NCBI GenBank assembly: GCA_033762255.1
Contig: JANRLT010000051.1
Location: 1 to 64,000, forward strand
Direction of reading: 5' to 3'
DNA: 64,000 nt
Source of the DNA: Pirellulales bacterium
Lineage (GTDB): Bacteria > Planctomycetota > Planctomycetia > Pirellulales > JALHPA01
In this document: piece by piece, positions 35,749-40,989 of the stretch
How the letters are laid out: each line of letters begins with the position of its first letter
Numbering within the stretch: the stretch's first letter is position 1
Position numbers and translations under genes: made by a program
The notes under the pieces: model-generated
Seen by the model: only the letters and a program-made list of their open reading frames with translations
What the model was told of the DNA's origin: nothing
Databases searched by the model: none

Positions 35749-36606
35749 GTGTCTGTTGAGGTTTTTGGTTGCTGGATTTTGGTATTTGGTTGCTGGTTTA
35801 TGGTATTTGTTTAGCCGCGACGCGCAGCGGAGCGCGGTTCCTCGTAGCGGCGAGTTCTACTCGCCATTCAGGCCGTAGCGGCGACGTTCCGTCGCCGTTC
35901 TAGTATTTGGTTGCTGGTTTATGGTTTCTTTGCTTTTCTGCCGCGAAGCGGTTGCAGCACATAGCCCCGGGTTGGAGCGCAGCGACTACCCGGGGGGAAT
36001 GGAAAAACTACCCCTTGTCTCGTTTAGCCGCGACGCGCAGCGGAGCGCGGTATTTGAAATTTGTTTAGCCGCGCAGCGGCGTCAGAAATTTAGCCGGGGA
36101 TGCAAACCCCCGGATCGCTAGTCGTGTTTGATTGCAAAGCCGCGCAGCGGCGAAGGACAACTGCGGGTAGCCCAGGTGATTCGCAAGGGTACCCAAGGAA
36201 CTTGTTCCTTGGCCGCGCAGCGGCAAGAAGCATTTCTTCAAATATTTCCATTATATCCATGTGGGCTTCTTGTGCTACGCACACTGGAACAAGTTCCAGT
36301 GCAAGCCGTCGATTGGCGGTAATTCCGCAAAAAATAAGAAAAGCTCCCCGTGCCACACCCTTTCCGAACCGATTCTCTGTTTGGGGATGTTTCTAACTCC
36401 TGATTCAGTCAGTACTTGTATAGTTCGAGTCTGATTTGGTGGCTAATGCCGAAGCCGACGGGTTACAAAACTGCACAGGCGGATTAACAGCGATGACCCT
36501 TAGGCGGCTAGCGAGGAAAATTGCGTATCGGGTTGCGTGTGCGGTGGTATGTTTGCAAATTCTTCATGATCTGGCAGCGAATAACAGCGTTCCCACCTCG
36601 TCAGTC
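35749..36606. repeat. Gene-free nest of short dispersed repeats
   Basis: 858 bp without a credible gene. Direct repeats: 22 bp starting TATTTGGTTGCTGG at 35783-35804 and 35904-35925; 29 bp starting GTTTAGCCGCGACGCGC at 35809-35837 and 36022-36050; AGCCGCGCAGCGGC near 36064, 36139 and (GGCCGCGC) 36211. Hairpins: CCCCGGGT/ACCCGGGG at 35965-35995, GGCGAG..CTCGCC near 35859 and GGCGAC..GTCGCC near 35879. It separates the pseudo-M14 gene from the RHS-tip cluster. Confidence 0.75.
36282..36301. repeat. CACTGG hairpin repeat, copy 1
   Basis: CACTGGAAC-AA-GTTCCAGTG, a perfect 9-bp stem with a 2-nt loop. Same family as 38418-38436 and 38535-38553. Confidence 0.75.
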
Positions 36607-37005
36607 TTACGATTTGTCAGATTCGATTGCGTCATTTTGGGGTTGCACTATTTTTGGCACAGGGCGGCCAAAGCGTAAGCATTCGTAGAGTCTGCGATAG
36701 CGACCCTCCATTTCGCACTGCCTGCGAGCAAGAAGTTCTTTGTCGTTAAAATCAGCCACAAATGCCGTTGCATCCGGCCGAAAATTGGCTGGAACAATAT
36801 CCCGTTCGAAATGATTTATCAATAAAGTGACAAGTCTGTAATCCATGTTTCTAACGCAGCATTCGTATACGCTTGGATCCTCCAAAAGGATTCTCTCTAC
36901 TACATTCGGGCAGAGCTCATCGTCGGTGAGCAATTCCCTTAAGTAAGCAGTGAAAAACTTGGCGATTTGCTTTTCTAACTGATCAGCTTGTGACGCACCA
37001 GACAT
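36607..37005 (-). CDS. Putative immunity protein of the C39-like toxin
   Basis: 132 residues: helical, acidic, with VVERILLEDPSVYECCVRNM, LVTLLINHFERDIVP and CEMEGRYRRLYECLRFG. No family recognised. It follows the detached toxin gene by 37 bp on the same strand, the usual place for a cognate immunity gene in RHS-type loci. The assignment rests on position only. Confidence 0.55.
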   Translation of the reverse strand: MSGASQADQLEKQIAKFFTAYLRELLTDDELCPNVVERILLEDPSVYECCVRNMDYRLVTLLINHFERDIVPANFRPDATAFVADFNDKELLARRQCEMEGRYRRLYECLRFGRPVPKIVQPQNDAIESDKS

Positions 37006-37042: not shown

Positions 37043-37951
37043 TTAATAGGGCCTGACGTTGATGATAGTGTTGGAGCCAGCCATTCTCGTATGAAAGGAA
37101 GTTTCCAGTTGGTTGTAGGTTCCCCGTGCGGAATCTGTGACGTTTACCCAGGTTTTTCGGGTGCTTATCTCGGAGAATGCTGTATTAACATTTACCCAAT
37201 GGTTTCCATCAACATGCGCTATCACGGACCCCATGGTTTGGGCCTTGTAGAAATCATCCAAGCTTGGGCGAAGCGACACCGCAAACGCCGCATCGGTAGA
37301 ATTGTTGATAAGTGTGGTCAGCTCACTGCGATTCAAGCCACCTGAACGCATACTGTTTCGCAAAGCTAACGGAACTGTAAGCGTATGCGGCACATTCAAG
37401 TCTTTCATCGCATTACTTGCGCAATAAAGCCCGCAAGTCCCATCAAGTTTTTGCAGTCTCGACGGAACGAAATCCTTTACGTCATGTAGACCAGTAATCC
37501 CTGGTGCAACTCGTGCGCCGCCCACAACGGAGCGCGATCCGGCAATCTCTTTGAACGGCCCGGCGAGCGTCGTCGCGGTCTCATCCACCTTCCCTGCCGC
37601 CCGGAAGCTTGCCGTGTTCCCCCCCAGGCCAAAAAGGCCAGCGATCATCTGCACGCTGTTTTGCAGCGAGAATCCATCATTAGTATACGCGTCATAACCG
37701 CCTCGGCCAACACCAACCACGTTCCCCAACGTGTCAAAATAGTTCGCTCCCTTTGCCACGTAAGCTAACTTTGACCCCTGCGCGACGCCGGTCAGCGCCG
37801 CCAGGCCCAGTTCCGTCGAAACCCTGGCCAACCCCTCGGAAAACGCATAACCCGCTTCCAGGTCGGCTTTATCGACCGGAAGCAACCGGCCCCCCTCCAC
37901 AAAACCCAGCGTGGCCGTTGAGACCAGGGCTTGGAATCCGCCATTTACCAC
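37043..37951 (-). CDS. Detached RHS-type toxin with C39-like Cys protease signature
   Basis: 302 residues from GTG 37951; the frame is open to about 37990 (TGYSLTGGKA precedes), so the N-terminus is arbitrary. Residues 1-160 look like a Gly/Ala-rich pre-toxin segment (NGGFQALVSTATLGFVEGG). The C-terminal 140 have Q-x5-C in LQKLDGTCGLYCASNAM (about 170), His in IAHVDGNHWVNV (about 245) and Asp in WVNVTDSARG (about 265), the Gln-Cys-His-Asp order of papain-like/C39 peptidases. No RHS core precedes it, so it is an orphan cassette. Target unknown. Confidence 0.6.
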   Translation of the reverse strand: MVNGGFQALVSTATLGFVEGGRLLPVDKADLEAGYAFSEGLARVSTELGLAALTGVAQGSKLAYVAKGANYFDTLGNVVGVGRGGYDAYTNDGFSLQNSVQMIAGLFGLGGNTASFRAAGKVDETATTLAGPFKEIAGSRSVVGGARVAPGITGLHDVKDFVPSRLQKLDGTCGLYCASNAMKDLNVPHTLTVPLALRNSMRSGGLNRSELTTLINNSTDAAFAVSLRPSLDDFYKAQTMGSVIAHVDGNHWVNVNTAFSEISTRKTWVNVTDSARGTYNQLETSFHTRMAGSNTIINVRPY

Positions 37952-38007
37952 GGCCTTACCGCCGGTTAATGAATAGCCTGTCCTACTTGCTCATTCTGCA
38001 CAAAATT

Positions 38008-38199
38008 TCATCTCCGCTCAGGTCGAATTACATCAAAGCTTGGCATGATGGTCTCGAATATATGGCCACATTTCTTGCAGCGGTACCGAGGTACATTTCC
38101 AAGTTCCGGAACAAGTCCTAAGAATTCGTACTCATTTGATTTATGATCCTCGTTGCATTCCGCGCAGAAAATGATGGTTGACTCAAAATTGTTTGTCAT
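38008..38199 (-). CDS. Small zinc-ribbon protein in the toxin cluster
   Basis: 63 residues from MTNNFESTII. Two Cys pairs, FCAECNEDH and YRCKKCGHIF, form a likely zinc ribbon; the C-terminus is ETIMPSFDVIRPERR. It lies just upstream of the detached toxin frame (stop at 38008). It may be an immunity protein left from another cassette or an unrelated small gene; nothing in the sequence decides. Confidence 0.5.
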   Translation of the reverse strand: MTNNFESTIIFCAECNEDHKSNEYEFLGLVPELGNVPRYRCKKCGHIFETIMPSFDVIRPERR

Positions 38200-38417
38200 C
38201 GAAGTCCTCCTCCAAGGTTGGGTGCCCAAGTAGTTGGTGGCACTGGAATGTGTGAATAGTTTTATTAACGTGTGCCCAAATCTCTTTATCGGCGGGGTGG
38301 CACTGACGAACTACCCTCTTTCTTATTCTAGCTTTGCCCAGTTCTTGCTGACAGCCATTTCCGTGCACCTCCAGGAACAACCAAACAACTTGGCCATTTT
38401 GTGAAGCCGTCGTGTGC

Positions 38418-38436
38418 CACTGGTGGAACACCAGTG
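38418..38436. repeat. CACTGG hairpin repeat, copy 2
   Basis: CACTGGTG-GAA-CACCAGTG, an 8-bp perfect stem. The inner pairs differ from the other copies but stay complementary. Confidence 0.75.
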
Positions 38437-38534
38437 CCGAGACGGGAACTTGATGATTCGAAACGGCTGGCACTTCGGAAAAAGTCGTGAGTAAGAATTC
38501 CTAAGCTATTGGGGATCGCACACCCTGTGGCAAG

Positions 38535-38553
38535 CACTGGCAAAATGCCAGTG
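38535..38553. repeat. CACTGG hairpin repeat, copy 3
   Basis: CACTGGCA-AAA-TGCCAGTG, an 8-bp perfect stem, 98 bp from the end of copy 2. The inner pairs are again changed on both sides. Confidence 0.75.
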
Positions 38554-38977
38554 GCACCCAACGTTACTTCATCATGGATAAGTCTGGTGCAAGGAAATGG
38601 AACCAGCAAGAGTAAGGCTAAAGCTTGCTGAAAAAGTTCACTTCAACGGTGCCACCCCGCCGATTCACGAAGGGATGTGTCGGGTGCCGCCGCACGGCAA
38701 AGATCGTCGGCAATCAACCCGCAATAACAGAACGCCCGTTTGCCGCTCCGCTTAACAGACACGAAACTCACGCACTTCCGCAGCCACGCCACGCTCCGAC
38801 CAATCACAAAAACACTGTCCGTCCACTGTCCCGCCACACCACGGCAGGTTGCCAAAAAATGAACTTTAAGGCAACTCCGGGGCGCTCGTTGTCTTCCCAT
38901 AAATCAAACAGCAAAAAATATCCAACCGCTCCCTTGACACCAGACACTCTTTCAGGGATGGGCTACCCCGCTACCCG

Positions 38978-39208
38978 CTACCCCGCTGGTATGTTCGACA
39001 GAATAGGAGTACCTTCAGAATGAAGACGAATCTTAATAGATTCGGCCAATACATCGTCTTCGATTATTAAACCACACGCAGTTTTTTTGTCGTAAATAAC
39101 GCATGTTGCAACATCCGTAGAATCATCGTTACCGGTCTGGATAAGCACATATCGACCGGTTTTGTCGATGAATAGATACTCGTAATCTTCAAACTTTTCT
39201 CTTTGCAT
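38978..39208 (-). CDS. Putative immunity protein of the RHS tip
   Basis: 76 residues, acidic: MQREKFEDYEYLFIDKTG, YVLIQTGNDDSTDVATCVI, GLIIEDDVLAESIKIRLH. Its ATG shares one base with the RHS stop (TAATG), so it is translationally coupled to the toxin. This tight linkage and small acidic character are typical of immunity proteins. No family recognised. Confidence 0.6.
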   Translation of the reverse strand: MQREKFEDYEYLFIDKTGRYVLIQTGNDDSTDVATCVIYDKKTACGLIIEDDVLAESIKIRLHSEGTPILSNIPAG

Positions 39209-40680
39209 TATGGCGACACCCGATTAATTGAACTGCTAAATTTGAATGGATCACCATCGAGTGGAACTACTGTAGAGTATCTCTGCGGATTTCCATTTTT
39301 CTGCATTAATTGCAACCACAGCATATCGTCCTTGCTTGCATGCTGAGCGTAACCAGCAGGGTGAGTATGCGAAATCCACCGATAGTTGCCATTTGCTGGG
39401 AACCATACTTTTGCATGATCTCCCGAGAAGAGAAGATAGCGTCCTCCTCCACCATTTCTACCAGCACCTGTTTCGTAGATTAGCGCGAACTCTCTTCCGT
39501 GCGCCAATTGCAATCCTTCCATTTCAGTATTGGTAAGTCTTCGGCCTACCTGCATACCAGTACGCCCCGGTAAAGCTGCAGCATCAACTACAACATCTCC
39601 AGTCGCAGATGACCATACTTTTAACGAACCGCCTCCCAAATTCCCGAGGCCACCAGTTGCTCTTGCTCCTCCAGCTGGAGAAGTTACCCCACCTCCTGGC
39701 AGAGCCGCTTTGACCGGGCTAGCAATACTCATGGCCGTCGTGACGAGTTCCACAGTCCCGACGACACCTTGCAGTATTCTACCCGACGTTGAGAGTTTTG
39801 TGAACTGAAAATTCTCGTTGGCATCCATCTGGTAGGTGCTGCCGGAGTACGCCCCATTCCAGATTTTCCCCAGGCCCACCTGATTTCCCACGGCGTTACC
39901 CGTGGCGCCGTAGAAAGCCTCTTCCCTGGAGTGCCCATTGCGAACGAGTTCCTCATACATGACCCCAGCTTCCCGTGTAGTGTGGGCAGCGCTTTTAAGC
40001 GAATTCCCAACACTCGCAACTATGCTACTCGGCGTGGGTTGTTCCATGCCAAAATGGGAACTCACGGCAAACGCGGGATTCACTGTCCGCATGTAATTCG
40101 ACGAAACCGTGTCCGCGATGCCGAACAGAGGGTTGTTCGAGAATTGCTTGACGTTATCGCCAACGGAATTCAAAAAGTTGGAAGTACTGTGCGTTAATCG
40201 CCACGTATTGTAATCAAAACTGGCGTTTGCATGATCGACACGAATTTTTTCCAGCCATACTTCACGTTCTTGCTGGGCACGATAGGTGCGCAATTCCGCT
40301 TGTAGCTTCGTCTCTGGTGGATTCAGGAAATCGTTGAGTCTGCTATTTTGAAAATCTTGATAACTGACCCAGCGGTGAACGGAACTGTAAGCATCGTTCC
40401 CCACCAAATTGTTGACCAAGGAATTGAGTGCATTGGGATTTCCGCGCGGAGCATAACTATCCCCTTCCAAGGCAAACTGAAATGCCAAGTTGCCGGCGCT
40501 TCCGCCCCCCAGGCGCTGCGTCGCCAGGCCGCTCGGGTCAATCGCGTTGACCGGGTTGTTCCCCGCGTAGCGGTACAGGTTGGTATCCGCCAGCGCGGGG
40601 TCCTCACCCAGGAACCGGCCCGTCCGCGGGTCATAATACCGGGCCCGGTGGTGCTGCAGGCCCGTCTCGATGTCGAACAC
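39208..40680 (-). CDS. 5'-truncated RHS protein with JAMM-like C-terminal domain
   Basis: 490 residues from GTG 40680. The same frame continues upstream in RHS style (QHRYLRGPLVDQ, LGDHENSIRDIVDSLTRA) to a TAG at 40984-40986, with no earlier RHS repeats, so the long YD-repeat shell is missing. RHS core: ETGLQHHRARYYDPRTGRF, LYRYAGNNPVNAIDPSGL. A variable pre-toxin region of about 270 residues follows. The end has Glu in GREFALIYETG and ISHTHPAGYAQHASKDDM, matching the ExnHxHP..S..D JAMM metallopeptidase pattern with one extra residue between the second His and Ser. Base composition becomes AT-richer beyond the core. Confidence 0.7.
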   Translation of the reverse strand: MFDIETGLQHHRARYYDPRTGRFLGEDPALADTNLYRYAGNNPVNAIDPSGLATQRLGGGSAGNLAFQFALEGDSYAPRGNPNALNSLVNNLVGNDAYSSVHRWVSYQDFQNSRLNDFLNPPETKLQAELRTYRAQQEREVWLEKIRVDHANASFDYNTWRLTHSTSNFLNSVGDNVKQFSNNPLFGIADTVSSNYMRTVNPAFAVSSHFGMEQPTPSSIVASVGNSLKSAAHTTREAGVMYEELVRNGHSREEAFYGATGNAVGNQVGLGKIWNGAYSGSTYQMDANENFQFTKLSTSGRILQGVVGTVELVTTAMSIASPVKAALPGGGVTSPAGGARATGGLGNLGGGSLKVWSSATGDVVVDAAALPGRTGMQVGRRLTNTEMEGLQLAHGREFALIYETGAGRNGGGGRYLLFSGDHAKVWFPANGNYRWISHTHPAGYAQHASKDDMLWLQLMQKNGNPQRYSTVVPLDGDPFKFSSSINRVSP

Positions 40681-40989
40681 CGCCCCCGTGAACGCGAACA
40701 GCGTGTCGTGGGCGGGGTCGGAACTGCTTTCCGCCGCCAGCCGCCCAAAGGAGTCGTAGCGTTTGTGGTTGAGGAGGGCGCGGGTCAGGCTGTCAACGAT
40801 GTCGCGGATCGAGTTTTCATGATCGCCGAGCGTCCAGCGGAATTTTCCGCCGGTGCCCCCCGAAAAATCCTCATCGGCGAGGATTTGATCGACGAGCGGG
40901 CCGCGGAGGTAGCGGTGTTGGATGGCGGAAAGATTTGAAAAACGCTTCCCGCCGCTCCGTGGCCCAGGAACAAGTTTCTGCAGCTACTT

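Follow-up and report, generated by a model that had tools for sequence, protein, structure and literature searches.

C39-like papain-fold domains are known as tips of polymorphic toxins with RHS carriers, where they have been described as Tox-PLC39 (Tox-PL-C39; Zhang et al. 2012, PMC3482391). In the Cpe1/Cpi1 system (EvpQ/TsaP group), a papain-like cysteine protease toxin has GyrB and ParE as its targets and cuts them at a double glycine (PMC12136450). Toxin tips also occur in orphan cdiA-CT/cdiI and rhs-CT/rhsI modules, which have been reported from E. coli, Dickeya and Salmonella (PMC3150448, PMC3967940), and in the documented Salmonella case recombination took place via 522 bp at 95% identity (PMC3967940). 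Here we have analysed a window of 64,000 nt, the whole stretch of planctomycete DNA presented above, and we estimate at about 0.8 the probability that it holds an orphan, that is, a displaced and 5′-truncated, RHS C-terminal toxin/immunity module whose tip is a divergent C39-type papain-fold cysteine peptidase. The toxin part of the cassette consists of the following features:

37043-37951, minus strand: toxin ORF of 302 codons with an annotated GTG start at 37951.
37043-37990, minus strand: whole open frame of the orphan cassette, 315 codons, no RHS core, annotated GTG without a well-spaced Shine-Dalgarno.
37502-37981, minus strand: 5′-truncated RHS pre-toxin linker, delimited by linker homology, an in-frame stop and GC content.
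37046-37501, minus strand: C39-like (papain-fold) toxin domain, residues 151-302, identified by hhalign with controls, catalytic columns, and a model with fold search.
37453-37451 (Gln167), 37435-37433 (Cys173), 37201-37199 (His251) and 37135-37133 (Asp273), minus strand: predicted catalytic residues.

The ORF at 37951-37043(-) has two parts, a pre-toxin linker (residues 1 to ~120) followed by the C39-like domain (residues 151-302). An in-frame stop at 37993-37991 bounds the open frame of the cassette on its 5′ side, and linker homology, which begins at LTGGKAVVN, extends beyond the annotated GTG to ~37978. Since the homology runs past the GTG and almost reaches the in-frame stop, we regard the cassette as a 5′-truncated orphan. 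The annotated GTG lies inside the linker, and as no usably spaced Shine-Dalgarno precedes it, it probably does not serve as a real start. The toxin fragment is therefore devoid of translation start signals and also of an export signal, a usual, if not universal, trait of orphan Rhs-CT/RhsI modules, and because of this the tip probably stays silent in this genome and is not produced as such, while the candidate immunity gene downstream can be translated. GC content falls from 60.6% in the linker to 48.2% in the tip and 45.9% in the downstream 132-aa ORF.

A search of 296 genomes of the same order matched the ORF to places in ten other genomes, with E values from 7.7e-19 to 3e-5. In every case the matched part was the N-terminal part (residues 1-153 at most), and the linker showed 34-45% identity to RHS-type proteins from other genomes of the order. 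The match at L015 resembles a different frame and may be spurious. The tips that follow these related linkers differ from one another, including a DddA-like deaminase (L011, Pfam E 1.5e-17), a Tox-SHH nuclease (L014, Pfam 6.1e-15), a REase-like tip with a sub-threshold match to Tox-REase-2 (L007, 6.6e-5), a tip that looks Hint-like by eye (L013) and others with no Pfam match. As the N-terminal part matches RHS linkers and the homology continues upstream of the GTG, the ORF is the displaced C-terminal piece of an RHS-type protein. The preliminary description of this locus had spoken of a toxin that follows a pre-toxin segment and carries no RHS core, and both statements hold, the segment being a linker of RHS type. 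Separately, two loci (L008 and L016) present adjoining RHS fragments that have the same linker and differ in their tips, along with repeated downstream genes of 170 aa, an arrangement that is an orphan array in a related genome.

Gln167-x5-Cys173, His251 (in GNHWVNV) and Asp273 (in VTDSARG) occur in the ORF in this order, and when the domain was added to 29 C39 sequences all four residues fell in the C39 catalytic columns. Their catalytic role is a prediction from one sequence without close homologs, aligned to C39 columns. Comparison by hhalign of the single domain sequence with a first C39 profile, made of 29 domains that match PF03412 and come from genomes of the same class, gave a collinear alignment of 119 columns with a score of 33.3 (P 2.3e-5, probability 76%). 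None of the 586 controls reached this score: the maximum was 23.3 among 400 shuffles and 22.7 among 186 protein segments of the same genome. The reversed domain sequence scored 15.4 and other RHS tips 12.5-14.6 (11.5-14.6 when other tips, linker and immunity candidate are taken together), and a transglutaminase profile gave 9.7 against the domain; for NlpC/P60 only two members were found, too few for a control profile. True C39 domains kept out of the profile scored 86-229, and for this reason we consider the domain a distant C39 relative. With 58 C39 domains, the score rose to 47.0 (P 5.6e-8, 95% probability, C39 alignments spanning 119-120 columns in all), as against at most 20.0 in 100 shuffles; the extra members of this set were found via a profile that included the query, and each is a C39 domain by an independent profile. 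Masking the four catalytic residues lowered the C39 score to 13, which implies that the motifs account for much of the signal. In hmmsearch the domain reached E 3.6e-5, as calculated for a single target. As for family models, C39_2 (PF13529) sets gave no significant match with the domain, and a comparison of the domain with Pfam gave no match even at E 10, the gathering cut-offs of PF03412 and PF13529 not being reached, so that we do not file the domain under either family. The whole ORF likewise matched no Pfam or NCBIfam model significantly at permissive thresholds, and its PHROG matches were at chance level. Overall, the relation of the domain to C39-type papain-like peptidases is statistically supported at the level of sequence and of superfamily. 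The Gln-Cys-His-Asp signature in papain-like/C39 order, first noticed in the sequence alone, is thus confirmed beyond chance by the profile comparison with C39 that had been proposed along with it.

Structure prediction, also proposed at that time, gave a more qualified answer. From the single sequence, AlphaFold2 (AF2) produced an uninformative model (pLDDT 31), and a fold search with it was useless. A three-sequence alignment, in which the partners of the domain were two C39 domains from viral contigs, yielded a low-confidence model (pLDDT 48.6, pTM 0.49), whose support is partly circular because the alignment held these two C39 sequences. In this model a helix begins at the Cys and is followed by strands bearing the His and the Asp. 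With the same low confidence and partial circularity, the model aligned to ComA (VIA-align) with Z 10.6 and 3.3 Å over 124 residues, and its top Foldseek matches were PCAT1, Cpe1 (9l5u) and the C. rodentium CdiA-CT (8ssk); against protease toxins this low-confidence model gave Z 8.8 for Cpe1 (9l5u) and Z 8.4 for the C. rodentium CdiA-CT (8ssm). The structural check is supportive, within the limits of such a model.

Close homologs of residues 151-302 were not found in IMG/VR scans, in two GTDB scans, in plasmids or in phages, and scans of 84,980 species revealed, at their sensitivity, no relative of the toxin domain. Among 392 genomes of the phylum, three weak matches to the toxin were taken as chance, and inspection of two of them revealed no related gene. 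The alignments behind the degenerate scans included hand-made relaxed variants of the domain, solely for widening the search patterns; these variants are not biological sequences and were kept out of every comparison and structure job. Other C39 domains of the order (profile A9) had no RHS-tip look in the loci inspected, as judged by a motif pattern and by frames that resembled ABC exporters or short proteins.

The surroundings of the toxin ORF contain a candidate immunity gene, a further small ORF and two repeats:

36607-37005, minus strand: candidate immunity gene for a 132-aa protein, with an AAGGA Shine-Dalgarno 8 nt ahead of the ATG and the last ~20 codons in repeat B.
38008-38199, minus strand: 63-aa zinc-ribbon-like ORF (CxxC..CxxC) immediately upstream of the cassette, ending ~17 bases before its frame.
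38290-38662: repeat A, a 373-bp MITE-like element with 14-bp inverted ends CGGCGGGGTGGCAC and about ten copies at 75-84%.
36160-36667: repeat B, an interspersed intergenic repeat occurring in pieces, with many genome copies.

The small gene that the preliminary description placed right behind the toxin corresponds to the 132-aa ORF, which starts 37 nt downstream of the toxin ORF. Its position and its Shine-Dalgarno make it plausible that this is the immunity gene. The 132-aa protein had no homologs in our searches, weak partial matches being confined to longer frames, and the codon-bias score of its frame was no better than those of other frames. Because repeat B supplies the last ~20 codons, the gene may have lost its original end. 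On the other side of the cassette, the 63-aa zinc-ribbon-like ORF is possibly a leftover (immunity gene) of another module. Repeat A lies upstream of the cassette and repeat B downstream. Several copies of repeat A measure 369-373 bp, with no obvious target duplication, and one copy adjoins a repeat B remnant or lies within it (L037 7606-7977); throughout the genome, copies of repeat B are often located just past the point where a small ORF ends. We considered whether both repeats form a cassette array and rejected it, as both are interspersed genome-wide and mostly lie away from RHS loci. At 36067-36113(-) there is also a sub-threshold Rfam match to Acido-Lenti-1 RNA (31.9 bits, gathering 37).

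A second RHS locus lies further upstream of the cassette:

39208-40983, minus strand: second RHS fragment of 591 codons, in which only the end of the core is left, followed by a different linker and a JAB/JAMM-like tip (HTHP...SKDD).
38978-39208, minus strand: 76-aa ORF after this fragment, in TAATG overlap with the RHS stop.

The JAB/JAMM-like tip of this fragment has no Pfam match, and the fragment with its 76-aa ORF is a second orphan-like toxin module. The preliminary description regarded the C39-like tip as a spare kept for recombination with the neighbouring RHS gene, much as orphan Rhs tips in Salmonella behave (PMC3967940). The genome offers little for such an exchange. The neighbouring fragment is itself 5′-truncated, its linker is unrelated to that of the cassette, and the longest identical stretch between the two is 15 bp. 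Five further RHS core matches are found on other contigs of the genome, but a matching linker is absent elsewhere: in a protein search of this 96.6%-complete genome no other place matched the ORF, and a DNA search found only very short, chance-level matches within the cassette frame, the longest being 29 bp at 86%. The necessary homology is thus lacking, the idea of a tip waiting to recombine finds no support, and we give it almost no credence. Orphan modules usually lie downstream of a full main rhs gene, and how much sequence they share with that gene varies in the literature. Since the RHS gene of the window is a 591-codon fragment and shares no more than 15 bp with the cassette, we have named the locus an orphan cassette and do not assign it to a main rhs locus as a module.

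According to the orphan module reading, a full RHS protein would carry the tip into a competitor, where Cys173, His251 and Asp273 of the tip would form the triad that cleaves a target protein and Gln167 would be the oxyanion residue, and the 132-aa downstream protein would act as the immunity protein. Cleavage would most likely proceed as by Cpe1, which acts on GyrB and ParE at a double glycine. Against a C39-type fold one could object that no family model matched at any threshold and that the single-sequence AF2 model was uninformative; that the Gln-Cys-His-Asp pattern is a coincidence on some other fold is nevertheless very improbable, in view of a collinear alignment of 119-120 columns with P values of 2.3e-5 to 5.6e-8 and a score that 0 of 586 controls reach. 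If the fold is accepted, the domain might instead be a releasing peptidase that auto-processes a longer RHS protein, the real toxin having been lost downstream, given that papain-like peptidases can play that role in polymorphic toxins (PMC3482391) and that C39 enzymes normally cut double glycines in export. We find this unlikely: the domain stands at the extreme C-terminus and is directly followed by a stop and a small Shine-Dalgarno-bearing gene, which is the layout of a tip, and the drop in GC content falls at the linker/tip border. A decaying remnant, with tip and immunity gene non-functional and free of selection, has more in its favour, and its origin would be compatible with the orphan module that we propose. 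The carrier RHS and the start signals are absent, MITE-like and other repeats flank the cassette on both sides, repeat sequence forms the end of the immunity ORF, and the codon-bias score of that ORF does not stand out; on the other hand, 315 codons are still open with all predicted catalytic residues in place, and orphan modules elsewhere remain functional (PMC3150448). We judge decay to be a serious reading, somewhat short of probable. More tentatively still, and with evident doubt, the tip could found a distinct and very rare branch among the antibacterial protease toxins of the C39 type, having an immunity fold and perhaps also a target of its own and being preserved in a silent cassette flanked by repeats.

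Returning to the orphan module, its tip shares with the C39 domains of the exporters ComA, PCAT1 and LahT (PF03412) the Gln-x5-Cys spacing, the I-A-H-x-x-G-x-H-x-V strand, D-x-A-x-G, an F...G near the end of the domain and the fold of the low-confidence model, but it is not fused to an ABC transporter, lies below Pfam detection and has ~20% identity to them. Like orphan modules (PMC3150448, PMC3967940), the cassette has a displaced C-terminal fragment that lacks start and export signals and, behind it, a candidate immunity gene with a Shine-Dalgarno; it differs from them in that no full-length carrier lies next to it and no RHS gene in the genome has enough homology with it for recombination. 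With Tox-PLC39 it has in common a C39-like C-terminal tip of predicted papain fold, the C, H, D signature and an RHS context; that group is listed from Bacteroidetes, Chloroflexi and Firmicutes (PMC3482391), while the present case is a planctomycete orphan without a carrier or a detectable close relative. Cpe1 (PDB 9l5u; Song et al. 2025, PMC12136450) has a C39-like fold related to ComA/LahT and a Cys-His-Asp triad, and downstream immunity genes in its set encode 79-239 aa, compared with 132 aa for our candidate. It differs in that 9l5u is not matched by the sequence of the domain on its own, only by a profile also holding two C39 domains (6.7e-5), and in that the phyla reported for the Cpe1 group do not include Planctomycetota (PMC12136450). 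Such tips can be missed entirely by standard family models, the relation having been found only by directed profile comparison. The cassette would extend the C39-like protease toxins represented by Cpe1, a small group that was characterised recently, towards a planctomycete RHS setting, and it raises a question that can be tested, namely whether GyrB or ParE is cut at a double glycine. C39-like tips on polymorphic toxins are already known and the Cpe1 group has been characterised biochemically; beside them this cassette is an otherwise ordinary orphan of unusually isolated sequence, and the best-supported reading is that its tip works like the Tox-PLC39 and Cpe1 toxins.
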